Assembly: GCA_009779925.1 (NCBI GenBank)
Contig: WRAZ01000020.1
Location: 1-37,035 of the forward strand
Direction of reading: 5' to 3'
DNA length: 37,035 nucleotides
Origin: Chitinivibrionia bacterium
GTDB taxonomy: Bacteria > Fibrobacterota > Chitinivibrionia > Chitinivibrionales > Chitinivibrionaceae
Shown: one piece after another, positions 98 through 4,017 of the stretch
Layout of the letters: the number at the start of each line of letters is the position of its first letter
Numbering within the stretch: position 1 is the stretch's first letter
Translations under genes and position numbers: made by a program
The notes under the pieces: generated by a model
The model's input: the letters and a program-made list of their open reading frames with translations, nothing else
Told to the model about the DNA's origin: nothing
Databases searched by the model: none

Positions 98-121
98 GGG
101 GGGGGGGGGGGGGGGGGGGGG
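98..121. repeat. Homopolymer run of 24 G
   Basis: An uninterrupted run of 24 G residues lies directly before the first copy of the dispersed repeat. It belongs to no gene I can support. Such a run is prone to replication slippage and to sequencing or assembly error, so its exact length should not be trusted. The other two repeat copies have no G run in front of them. Confidence 0.85.
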
Positions 122-318
122 TAAACACAGGTGATTTCGCGAATGTGTTCGCGGTTGTTGGGGCATGGAAGATGGTGTTGAATTTAATCAAAGCCAATAT
201 TGCGAATGATAGAATTGTCGTTTCTACAACCATAGAGCAACCCCTCTTTGTGGTTTTATGAAAGTCTTCGTGTATAATATACGTTATTGGTGAGGGGGAA
301 TGTCAAGGGGTGGAGGTG
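121..318 (+). repeat. Dispersed direct repeat, copy 1
   Basis: About 198 bp that match copy 2 (1320-1517) along the whole length and copy 3 (2222-2340) in the first part. The conserved start contains a hairpin, CGCGAA-TGTG-TTCGCG. The conserved end carries GTGTATAATATACG and a G-rich tail. It stops right at the terminator of the Rpn-type gene. Differences from copy 2 fall mostly at positions that would change amino acids, so the repeat is probably not protein coding, although open frames cross it. Function unknown. Confidence 0.8.
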
Positions 319-345
319 AAAAAAAGGCGGATAGTGGTATCCGCC
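319..345 (-). terminator. Rho-independent terminator of the Rpn-type gene
   Basis: On the minus strand this is a perfect 8-bp stem (GGCGGATA / TATCCGCC) with a 4-base loop, followed by a run of seven T. It begins 26 bases after the stop codon of the Rpn-type nuclease gene. Confidence 0.85.
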
Positions 346-371
346 CATAGTTTTTGGGTGTTTACTTCAAC

Positions 372-1229
372 TCAGTATTCCAAACGCAGGATGTCGTCGA
401 TGAAGAGACCTGTATATCGCGCTACGGTATCGGCATCCACGCCATCTTTCAGCATGTTTATGGCTATTCGTTCTTTTTCTCTGCGCATTCCAATTTCCAT
501 ACCGTCCGATCTTTCGCCCTCCAATTCGTCCTCTAATTTCCATTCTCTTAACAACATATCTTTTACCTCCTCTGAATGACTTTCTAAAAACTCTGCTATT
601 TTGCCCTCGTTTATGCAGTCTTTTATAGCAAGATCTATCGCCTCTTTCAGCGTTTTTTTCTTTTTTAACAAATAATAACGAACCCGCGCAACAAGCATTT
701 CATAACCGCCTAACGCATCGCTTTTCTGTGCAAATTCGGGATTATATCCCTGATTAATGTTGTAAACCTGCACAAGCAACTCAAGATTTATCGGACATTT
801 GCCGGCTTCGTTTTTCTTAAACATATCCGACAACTTCAGCGTTTTTTTCGACGGATATTTGTCCTTTCCGTTATACAGAACTATAAATTCAGGATAGGGT
901 ATTCTTATTTTTAGTTTTTTATATATGTCCTTTCTCTTTATTATCTTTTTGTAAACGCTTTCTATGTAAGATAACATCCGAAGCGGCATATTTTCGTTTA
1001 TAGTCGATTGGTGTTCTATTAAAACAACTATTTTGCCGTCTATTACGAACGAAATATCATTTGCCTGCCCTTTATACAGCACGTTTTCCAAAGTTGTTAT
1101 TTTTATATCGGTGTCTTTGCCGTAGTTTGTGTTTTGTATTGCGTTGTATAACTCCAAAAGTGTATCTTTTTCACCGAACAAACTTGTAAAAACGCTGTCC
1201 TTGTATTCCCTGTTTGCTTTTGCGCTCAC
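372..1229 (-). CDS. Rpn family recombination-promoting nuclease / PD-(D/E)XK nuclease-family putative transposase
   Basis: This 285-residue protein resembles the Rpn/PDDEXK-transposase family, whose characterised members (E. coli RpnA) are DNA endonucleases that promote RecA-independent recombination. The nuclease core is visible near residues 57-75: NDISF, then a strand ending in IEHQS, which gives D58 and E72-x-Q74 as likely metal-binding positions. The C-terminus is charged and helical, as usual for the family, and the length is near normal. The start is GTG at 1229, six bases after AAGGAG; the ATG two bases upstream is out of frame and meets TGA at once. A promoter-like motif lies at 1259-1276 and a terminator at 319-345, so it is a single-gene unit between repeat copies 1 and 2. 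Whether it mobilises anything is not shown. Confidence 0.85.
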   Translation of the reverse strand: MSAKANREYKDSVFTSLFGEKDTLLELYNAIQNTNYGKDTDIKITTLENVLYKGQANDISFVIDGKIVVLIEHQSTINENMPLRMLSYIESVYKKIIKRKDIYKKLKIRIPYPEFIVLYNGKDKYPSKKTLKLSDMFKKNEAGKCPINLELLVQVYNINQGYNPEFAQKSDALGGYEMLVARVRYYLLKKKKTLKEAIDLAIKDCINEGKIAEFLESHSEEVKDMLLREWKLEDELEGERSDGMEIGMRREKERIAINMLKDGVDADTVARYTGLFIDDILRLEY

Positions 1230-1258
1230 ATTTTCTCCTTGTTTTAATGCAATTGTTA

Positions 1259-1276
1259 TATAATATAATATTTGCC
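1259..1276 (-). promoter_or_regulatory. Promoter-like AT motif upstream of the Rpn-type gene
   Basis: Minus strand reads GGCAAATATTATATTATA, ending 29 bases before the GTG start. It is one of at least ten similar sites in the window (see the finding on the recurring motif). Confidence 0.5.
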
Positions 1277-1319
1277 GCTAAGCAAAAACAGGTAAATTTT
1301 CATCTATTCTTTATTTGTA

Positions 1320-1517
1320 GGTAAACATAGGTGATTTCGCGAATGTGTTCGCGGTTGCGGAGGCGTGGAGAACGGCGTTGAAGTTAATCAATGCCAATAT
1401 CGCGAATGCCAAAATTGTCGATTCTAACAACCATAGAGCAACCTTTCTTTGTGTTTTTATGAAAGTCTTCGTGTATAATATACGTTATTGGGGAGGGGGA
1501 ATGTCAAGGGGCGGTGG
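1320..1517 (+). repeat. Dispersed direct repeat, copy 2
   Basis: Full-length partner of copy 1 in the same orientation. It contains the CGCGAA-TGTG-TTCGCG hairpin, the shared block around AACCATAGAGCAACC, the GTGTATAATATACG block and the G-rich tail. It lies about 45 bases upstream of the promoter motif of the Rpn-type gene, as copy 3 does for the DUF4160 gene. No coding role is supported. Confidence 0.85.
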
Positions 1518-1598
1518 TGGATTTTGTGGGGATTCTTTGTATCGTATAGAGGAAGAGAAATATTTTATGCTAATTCTACGCCTGTTCTTTGTATTTTT

Positions 1599-1850
1599 TC
1601 AACATCCTACGGCAATACTCATATCATATAATTCGTGCGGAGCAATGTCTTGTCCGTTTCCCCATTCAATCCCGTAACCGCTTGAAACCAAATGAACCGA
1701 TTTGAAATAATCGTAATTATATAATTCTCCATACCATTCCCCCGACATATAGGGCAGAACATCAAACAGTTTTACTTCCCCTGTTTCGTAATCAAGTTTT
1801 ACCTTATAACCTTCAAGCGGTTTTATACTTACAATCTTTGGACACAGCAT
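1599..1850 (-). CDS. DUF2442 domain protein
   Basis: An 83-residue protein whose whole length fits the DUF2442 family: an N-terminal segment with KIVSIKPLEGYKVKLDYETG, then FDVLPYM and a C-terminal GIEWGNGQDIAPHELYDM. Family members are small, often sit beside DUF4160 genes, and have been suspected to be toxin-antitoxin partners, but their activity is not established. It starts with ATG behind AAGGTGG and lies 11 bases after the DUF4160 stop codon, so the two are almost certainly co-transcribed. No terminator is evident between its stop and repeat copy 2. Confidence 0.85.
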   Translation of the reverse strand: MLCPKIVSIKPLEGYKVKLDYETGEVKLFDVLPYMSGEWYGELYNYDYFKSVHLVSSGYGIEWGNGQDIAPHELYDMSIAVGC

Positions 1851-1861
1851 TTTTTACCACC

Positions 1862-2128
1862 TTATTTTAGCGGCTCAATCTTAAAATATTGCTCTCCGTT
1901 AGAAAGCAATTTCCAGTTTGCTTCTAAATCTTCACGATGTATTTCCATCCACGCCTCGACAAGTTTCATTTTTGATTTCTGAACAGAGCCGTCAAGCACC
2001 TCTCCATCAAGTGATATTACGACTTCCTCTCCTGCGTATTCTACGTGAATATGCGGCTTATTATGTTTTCCTGAAACTTCTCTATACATACGAACAATAA
2101 TTCCGTAAAACAATGACAAAACAGGCAT
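1862..2128 (-). CDS. DUF4160 domain protein
   Basis: An 88-residue protein of the DUF4160 family, recognised by GIIVRMY near the N-terminus and the HNKPHIHVEYAGEE block near residues 22-35, followed by a helical half ending in LLSNGEQYFKIEPL. Function is unknown. The constant pairing with DUF2442 suggests that the two form a complex, possibly a toxin-antitoxin module. ATG start behind AAAAAGGAG. A promoter-like motif is at 2156-2175, and repeat copy 3 lies farther upstream. It is the first gene of a two-gene unit. Confidence 0.85.
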   Translation of the reverse strand: MPVLSLFYGIIVRMYREVSGKHNKPHIHVEYAGEEVVISLDGEVLDGSVQKSKMKLVEAWMEIHREDLEANWKLLSNGEQYFKIEPLK

Positions 2129-2155
2129 ACTTGCTCCTTTTTTATTTTCTTAAAT

Positions 2156-2175
2156 GATTATAAAATACTATATTG
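2156..2175 (-). promoter_or_regulatory. Promoter-like AT motif upstream of the DUF4160-DUF2442 unit
   Basis: Minus strand reads CAATATAGTATTTTATAATC, ending 27 bases before the ATG. The same 15-base core occurs upstream of the STAS gene at 21957-21975. Confidence 0.5.
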
Positions 2176-2221
2176 TTTTGACAGTGGGCGGGATTATTTT
2201 GTATTTGGCGGTTTTTTATTG

Positions 2222-2340
2222 GCACACAAGTGATTTCGCGAATGTGTTCGCGGTTGTCGGGGCGTGGAAGATGGTATTGCAAATGATAGAAATTGTCGTT
2301 TCTATAACCATAGAGCAACCTATGTTTTAGTGTTTTTGTC
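2222..2340 (+). repeat. Dispersed direct repeat, copy 3 (shortened)
   Basis: Matches the first 115 or so bases of copies 1 and 2, including the CGCGAA-TGTG-TTCGCG hairpin and AACCATAGAGCAACC. Relative to copy 1 it lacks 22 bases in the middle, and similarity fades after about 2340. With 2341-2448, which holds a minus-strand motif like the other promoter sites at 2358-2380 (GCCAAATAGTATTTTATTAT) but no convincing gene, it fills the 320-bp gap before the AAA-ATPase gene. Confidence 0.75.
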
Positions 2341-2448
2341 CCTGAAAACCTGATTCCGGATAATAAAATACTATTTGGCAGAGAGCGGTGGGGATGAAAT
2401 GCTTGGGGGTTGGTGATTTTTTTCTGATTTTTACATGATTTCCGGCGT

Positions 2449-4017
2449 TTATCCGAAACCAACTATACAATCAAAAATGTTCTTGCCTTTATGCTCTATC
2501 CATTTCGATTGCGGTTTACCGATATTTTTTTCGCTGCGAAAATCGAATGTAAGCAAGAAGCCCACATCTTTGTTTTTGCCGTCTAAGTATCCGCAAAGTT
2601 GGTCGTATGCTTCTTTATGTGCAGAATCGCCATACCAGCGTTTTAATTCTACGATAAATTGTTCTGTGTTGTAGTCCACAATAACGTCTGTTCTTCTGGC
2701 ATTACGGGTTTCACTTTCAATATGATAAAAACCGGCGCCGTTTATCAAAGGGCGTAGATAAGTCAAGAACAACATTCGGCATTCATTTTCTAAAAAATCT
2801 TTTCCGCTTTCACGATAAAGTTCGTAATAATGTTGTGTAAATTTCTCTATGCAAAGTTTCATGTCAAACTTGCCGTCTTTTATTACGTCGTTTGAAAGGA
2901 CTCTGTTTATACGAATGCCTTTTCGCTGTTTTTCCGTGATAAAATGCTCATAAATAATCAATTCAAAAATCGTGTTATCTATGACTGCTTTTCCGTTTTG
3001 GTTTTTTATGTATCCGAAAGTATGTCCTAAATCCATAGCATAGTCGGTCGTGTTGAATTTATAATCCTCGCCGTTTATCGTTATGTCATAAAGCAAGTCA
3101 GATAGTTCTTTGTCGGCTAAAATATTTTTACCTAAATCGTCAATAAGAGTACTTTTTTCCAGAAGAATTAGTTTTACCGCTTCCAAAACGCCGTTTTTTG
3201 TCCAATTTTTATTCAAATTATTTTCTATTCGCTGACAAATCCGTGAAACAAGATACGGATAGCCGCTTGTATAATCGCGGATTTCTTGGGCAACCGCTTG
3301 AATATCCATTCCGGATTTGTGATCTTTTTCGTATTCCATAAGCATAGACGCGATTTCTTTAACGCTCAACGACATATCCACTTCAAAATCAATCGCTATA
3401 TTCCAAGGTGAATTTAGGCGTTTTTCGCCGTCTTTAAGTTGATGAGTTCCTGCTTGCACCATTTTTACTTTAAGGTTTTTAATATCATAAACGCCTGCTA
3501 AAATTACACTTTGAAATGTTGCGCCGGCTTTTTGAGGTCTTTTAAGGTATTTGTCGCGCAGAATTCCAAGAAATTTCAAAAAAATGGTGTTGTTTGAGGT
3601 TTTATCAACCTCGTCTATCATTAAAACGAACTTTTGCTTTTTGCAAACTTTACTTAAAAAAGCGTCTAGCAAATCAAAGGCGGTAATCGACGCGTCTATC
3701 CAAATTTCAGAGCCGGGCAATTCTCTTTCTGTAAAATATTTTGCGCACAAACCAAGAAATCCTTGACAAAATTCGGCTTCATCGTCAAATGTTTTGTCGC
3801 TCACACCCTCAAAACTAATCGAAATTACGGTATAATCTTCTACAAGTTGTTCTTGCAACAAAAAAAGCGTTGTCGTTTTTCCGTATTGACGACCGCGGTT
3901 TATGGAGAAATACTTACCTGCTTCCACAAGTTGTACTATTTGTGAAATTTTTTCACTCGTGTCTGCCATATAATGCAAATCGGGCACACAAAGTCCTGTT
4001 ACGTTAAATTCGCGCAT
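2449..4017 (-). CDS. AAA-ATPase-like protein with C-terminal PD-(D/E)XK nuclease domain
   Basis: A 522-residue protein of the large AAA-ATPase-like plus PDDEXK_9 (DUF1703) group. The ATPase part has the P-loop RGRQYGKTT at residues 41-49 and a Walker B strand FVLMIDEVDK at 130-139. The C-terminal nuclease fold shows TDVIVDY with D444 and IVELKRW with E457-x-K459. The family is abundant in many gut and anaerobic bacteria, often in many copies; its physiological role is unknown, though a DNA-directed role in defence or mobility is plausible. ATG start behind AAAGGGGAATCAAAAT. A weak promoter-like stretch sits about 30 bases upstream. It is the last member of the accessory region at the left of the window. 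Confidence 0.85.
   Translation of the reverse strand: MREFNVTGLCVPDLHYMADTSEKISQIVQLVEAGKYFSINRGRQYGKTTTLFLLQEQLVEDYTVISISFEGVSDKTFDDEAEFCQGFLGLCAKYFTERELPGSEIWIDASITAFDLLDAFLSKVCKKQKFVLMIDEVDKTSNNTIFLKFLGILRDKYLKRPQKAGATFQSVILAGVYDIKNLKVKMVQAGTHQLKDGEKRLNSPWNIAIDFEVDMSLSVKEIASMLMEYEKDHKSGMDIQAVAQEIRDYTSGYPYLVSRICQRIENNLNKNWTKNGVLEAVKLILLEKSTLIDDLGKNILADKELSDLLYDITINGEDYKFNTTDYAMDLGHTFGYIKNQNGKAVIDNTIFELIIYEHFITEKQRKGIRINRVLSNDVIKDGKFDMKLCIEKFTQHYYELYRESGKDFLENECRMLFLTYLRPLINGAGFYHIESETRNARRTDVIVDYNTEQFIVELKRWYGDSAHKEAYDQLCGYLDGKNKDVGFLLTFDFRSEKNIGKPQSKWIEHKGKNIFDCIVGFG

Follow-up and report, generated by a model that had tools for sequence, protein, structure and literature searches.

Probable spread of an intergenic repeat module with Rpn-family and small accessory genes in a Chitinivibrionia genome

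Near one end of contig WRAZ01000020.1 of a Chitinivibrionia bacterium, genes of mobile or defence character are separated by copies of a single direct repeat, and the question arises whether this repeat guides the exchange of the genes or was simply multiplied along with them. The initial annotation had offered both possibilities, a cassette system in which the repeat directs recombination, perhaps with the help of the Rpn-type nuclease, and duplication by homologous recombination. The window analysed here is the whole 37,035-nucleotide contig (C20 below; other contigs are numbered likewise), one of the 88 that make up the 2.5-Mb genome, which is 97.6 % complete.

The three repeats of up to 198 bp that had been described (R below) were present at 121-330, 1321-1519 and 2224-2337 in one shared orientation. 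In a blastn comparison of copy 1 with its own genome, copy 2 was 88 % identical over 198 bp (E = 7e-68) and copy 3 showed 75 % identity (E = 1e-22), matches far above chance. The Rpn-family gene lies between copies 1 and 2, and copy 3 lies upstream of the DUF4160-DUF2442 pair. The CGCGAA-TGTG-TTCGCG hairpin is exact in all three window copies and constitutes a structural feature common to them; copy 3 lacks 22 bases, as had been claimed, and carries one extra base, which gives a net loss of 21. The description of the repeat as noncoding needs qualification, since in the gene direction an ATG is found in 7/7 copies of the genome and a frame of about 37 codons is open in four of the seven. The Rfam scan of the region gave no match up to E = 1, folding of R as a structured RNA gave z-scores between +0.1 and -1.8, and the putative peptide of R, searched in both reading directions in up to 295 genomes, gave weak, unrelated matches only.

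Table 1. Coordinates of the repeat modules and neighbouring genes in the window
Feature	Position	Strand	Remarks
C-tract of 24 (G on + strand)	98..121	-	distal end of copy 1, near contig edge
R copy 1 core	121..257	-	137 bp, downstream of Rpn
Head A of copy 1, promoter-like (CCCCTTGACATTCC...TATATTATACACGAAG)	258..318	-	
Terminator-like hairpin 3' of Rpn gene	325..346	-	counterpart in C55
Rpn/YhgA-family PD-(D/E)XK gene	372..1229	-	285 aa; one of six paralogues plus a fragment on C80
Predicted RpnS antitoxin frame	372..557	-	internal start GGAGGT-N7-ATG (555-571)
R copy 2 core	1321..1458	-	138 bp; extra base breaks frame; without C-tract
Head A of copy 2	1459..1519	-	
DUF2442, DhiA-like antitoxin candidate	1599..1850	-	PMC8198452
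DUF4160, DhiT-like toxin candidate	1862..2128	-	55.5 bits, below equivalog cut-off of 100
R copy 3 core	2221..2337	-	117 bp; -22/+1; without C-tract
Head B, promoter-like motif AAATAGTATTTT	2338..2399	-	
AAA-ATPase with C-terminal PD-(D/E)XK domain	2449..4017	-	adjoins copy 3; weak matches

The Rpn gene of the window matched PF04754 above the cut-off, PDDEXK_2 below it and TIGR01784 with 48.6 bits, just under the cut-off of 52.1. A GGAGGT-N7-ATG internal start is predicted in all six Rpn paralogues (window, C74, C56, C55, C22 and C11). The four-residue repeats that follow the RpnS start vary among these paralogues of one genome: GITQ occurs five times in C11 and once in C56, and GMRQ twice in C74. 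R stands directly 3' of an Rpn gene at C20, C74, C80 and C55, and C4 retains beside R a 37-bp remnant of an Rpn 3' end with 97 % identity. Since five copies are thus found directly behind an Rpn gene or its remnant, R is mainly a downstream spacer of the multicopy Rpn toxin gene. In the flanks compared, the Rpn genes on C56, C22 and C11 had no R. The adjacent DUF4160 and DUF2442 genes both scored above the Pfam cut-off. Two human-gut phage records contain DNA 67-69 % identical to part of window 1599-2128.

The genome search for further copies that the initial annotation had suggested returned seven R copies by blastn, three in the window and one each on C74, C80, C4 and C18, those on C74 and C80 lying near contig ends. 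Contig C55 begins at the edge of R, and the end of C11 is a noisy copy whose score was reached by 0/200 shuffles; among the additional copies some are complete, some degenerate and some truncated at the end of a contig. Their neighbours are genes of mobile or defence type, and housekeeping genes do not predominate. The nearest to an exception is the degenerate C18 copy, which has queF on one side and a degenerate PDDEXK fragment on the other and does not fit the general pattern. The neighbourhoods thus do not speak against the link with accessory genes. No convincing R copy was found in about 100 related genomes, including the single congener, or in phages, plasmids and viral contigs; the phage matches to the window cover the DUF4160-DUF2442 pair only. 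A search for the exact hairpin across 85,000 species gave one match, in a Verrucomicrobia contig. This match and a near match in another genome (G007) were rejected as R copies, since the sequence around each is unrelated and can be read as a coding frame. Synteny of the window, followed in relatives through PEP carboxylase, gave no match in the congener. Within these searches, R was confined to this species.

R is one module of a longer spacer which, in its fullest form and in the gene direction, consists of a head (A or B), R with its ATG and about 40 open codons, a C-tract and a leader called M', followed by the next gene. Upstream of R, copies 1 and 2 carry head A and are 94 % identical over a 93-bp block (226-318), while copy 3, C4 and C55 carry head B, the region of which (2321-2399, about 80 bp) is 96-97 % identical to C55 and C4. 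C74 and C80 have no head, the Rpn stop region standing directly before R. The heads are thus 94-97 % identical, as against 75-88 % for R. From the motif and this conservation we infer that heads A and B are promoters reading through R. The AAATAGTATTTT motif occurs seven times in the window when one mismatch is allowed (1.06 expected). The repeat-promoter distance of about 45 bases proposed earlier holds roughly, being by eye about 50 bases in copy 2 and about 40 in copy 3, but sigma-70-like matches were no commoner than in shuffles (15 vs 11.6 +/- 4.1).

In the C74, C80 and C4 copies the C-tract occupies the position that it has in copy 1. At C4 and C80 the order is R, C-tract and M'; in copy 1 and at C74 the sequence runs as far as the C-tract, which lies at a contig edge. 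The tracts are 9-24 bases long, long enough for slippage. One end of each of the contigs C77, C76 and C85 falls in M', and C11 stops shortly past it, and for this reason several joints of R, C-tract and M' have probably been lost in assembly. At the window's own edge, positions 1-97, beyond the 24-base G run, are of low complexity and are probably an unreliable assembly artefact; they were considered as a noisy M' copy and rejected, as they do not match the module that follows the tract elsewhere. G/C tracts of at least 10 bases occur at 15 places in this genome (G000), many of them at contig ends, for example C26:31603-31615, C72:114-129, C25:122-144 and C59:74-88, and the C26 tract directly follows a possible start codon. 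In the congener (G001, L111:1469-1546) a C5 tract followed by M'-like sequence with an HKSLFCRELRE frame lies between convergent genes, without R.

M' was found at seven loci with an identity of about 76-92 %. At six of them it precedes a small gene, of five kinds in all, and then a GLUG/FGE gene; the gene functions given here are based on family matches. The small gene encodes a PDDEXK protein matching mREase_II models at C4, an HNH protein at C85, a 254-aa protein at C76, a 149-aa protein at the second C4 locus (C4b) and a 150-aa putative membrane protein at C80 and C11; at C77 the FGE/GLUG gene itself directly follows M'. Homologous DNA extends over the leader and breaks off close to the small gene's start codon; for most pairs it begins again inside the next GLUG/FGE gene or a short way ahead of it. 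The exception is C80 versus C11, which have the same gene and homology throughout. Since the flanks are conserved around unrelated genes, the genes appear to have been swapped between those flanks, and this comparison is the best evidence for exchange. Members of the FGE-sulfatase and GLUG-motif families stand repeatedly after the variable gene (L009:1230-2516, L105:3112-4377, L010:4763-7357). FGE-type proteins are common targets of diversity-generating retroelements.

How, then, did the copies spread? We consider it rather probable that paralogous islands were duplicated and recombined with one another by homology, with modules reshuffled and no site-specific recombinase taking part. R would be one module of an intergenic leader-spacer duplicated with the multicopy Rpn toxin-antitoxin gene, and exchangeable small accessory genes would have been duplicated together with this leader-spacer. 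The fullest unit would run from Rpn through head A or B, R, the C-tract, M' and a variable gene to a GLUG/FGE surface gene. Its copies would stem from segmental duplication and would have been reshuffled by homologous recombination between the modules and the GLUG genes. The copies have module borders in common in differing combinations (head A, head B or none; C-tract and M' in C4 and C80). Homologous recombination together with segmental duplication is the simplest account because there was no integron integrase above the cut-off and there were no attC pairs, target-site duplications or fixed borders; as the agent, homologous recombination is inferred from comparisons within one genome of the species. 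Copy 1 would be the R end of a full spacer, cut by the assembly at the C-tract, and copies 2 and 3 are proposed to be tract-less scars between the Rpn gene, the DhiTA-like pair and the AAA-PDDEXK gene. The duplication alternative of the initial annotation is thus supported, and its cassette-like layout holds as a description, though not as a site-specific mechanism. The fixed order of the blocks could also stem from a single ancestral island whose duplicates later decayed and have exchanged little of late; the uneven identity of heads and R is not predicted by simple recent duplication unless constraint or gene conversion acts on the heads.

A different function for the module is conceivable, if rather doubtful, namely that of a phase-variable leader. 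In R an RBS-like site and an ATG would start a short ORF (about 40 codons) that crosses the C-tract into M' and, with an in-frame tract, ends at the start codon of the next gene, so that slippage would switch that gene by translational coupling; window copies 2 and 3 would then be dead leaders. At C4, C77, C80 and C11, the four loci where M' follows a C-tract, only a single one of the three frames runs uninterrupted between the tract and the next start codon, its stop overlapping or abutting that start. Shuffles of the whole leader, however, leave the frame uninterrupted up to the start in 2.6-5.3 % of cases per locus, and as these loci are homologues of one another, their combined weight is modest. 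The ATG present in every R copy is closely preceded by a conserved GGTTGC in 6/7, the -22/+1 change of copy 3 preserves the frame, and the congener's C5 tract leads into a similar frame. C/G runs of at least 10 bases also exceed expectation in the genome (15 vs 0.85 under an independent-base model). Purifying selection was not detected in the proposed frame (64/200 shuffles as low for R, 71/200 for M'), and a six-frame coding test of R and M' found no frame better than shuffles. Moreover, the assembled C80 and C4 tracts are out of frame and M' at C76 carries a frameshift. As read from these sequences, a poly-C-switched leader ORF is possible. The fuller proposition is a lineage-specific exchange of defence-type genes downstream of one movable leader made up of promoter head, R, poly-C and M', with the C-tract serving as a translational on/off switch for whichever gene occupies the slot; it seems to us unlikely. 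If the account given here is right, it would show how toxin-antitoxin and nuclease genes may multiply and change places without an integrase in a little-studied lineage, and the module would offer a testable candidate for a shared slippage-switched leader before many different defence-type genes.

It is improbable that R represents a non-autonomous mobile element of MITE-like or REP-like type that has inserted itself between genes. It is multicopy, about 137 bp long, intergenic and lineage-restricted, and some copies show a weak terminal AAACAC/GTGTTT inversion, but a terminal inverted repeat is not consistently present, target-site duplications are missing (the flanks differ), the 5' borders differ, Rpn is repeatedly linked on one side, and the searches gave no phage, plasmid or viral copy. 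Least of all does R look like the attachment site of an integron-like array, possibly cut by Rpn: the co-oriented copies 3' of accessory and toxin-antitoxin-type genes and the locally conserved hairpin would suit this very improbable reading, but the integrase model TIGR02249 gave five partial hits in the genome, all below the cut-off (14 control genomes also yielded sub-cut-off matches), the RYYYAAC...GTTRRRY pair is absent in 5/6 copies and the pairs of C80 are not at the repeat ends, both R borders vary from copy to copy, and the folding scores of R are those given above. The repeat-guided site-specific system is thereby rejected, and the role of recombinase assigned to Rpn found no support here; in a published study of rpn genes, evidence of autonomous transposition was not found (PMC10327210).

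Compared with known systems, the locus resembles integron cassette arrays in its co-oriented repeats 3' of accessory genes and differs from them in lacking an IntI above the cut-off, attC cores and constant borders. The DUF4160-DUF2442 genes have the same adjacent domain pair as the DhiTA type II toxin-antitoxin system (PMC8198452), although the DhiT match is under the NCBIfam equivalog cut-off. With the Rpn system (recombination-promoting nuclease/YhgA, Transposase_31, TIGR01784; PMC10327210) the present genes share their multicopy state, a gene-within-gene layout with an RpnS start predicted inside the gene, four-residue (12-bp) repeats that vary in number at the C-terminus, and the absence of target-site duplications at the repeat; a downstream spacer module common to several paralogues, such as R, was not found in the part of that paper available and sets the present family apart. 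The long C/G tracts near the starts of surface or accessory genes recall homopolymer-tract contingency loci, e.g. those of Neisseria and Helicobacter canadensis, to the extent that the accessible portions of PMC5320596 and PMC2823697 describe them, but here, with tracts read in one assembled genome, a shared tract-bearing leader precedes different genes.
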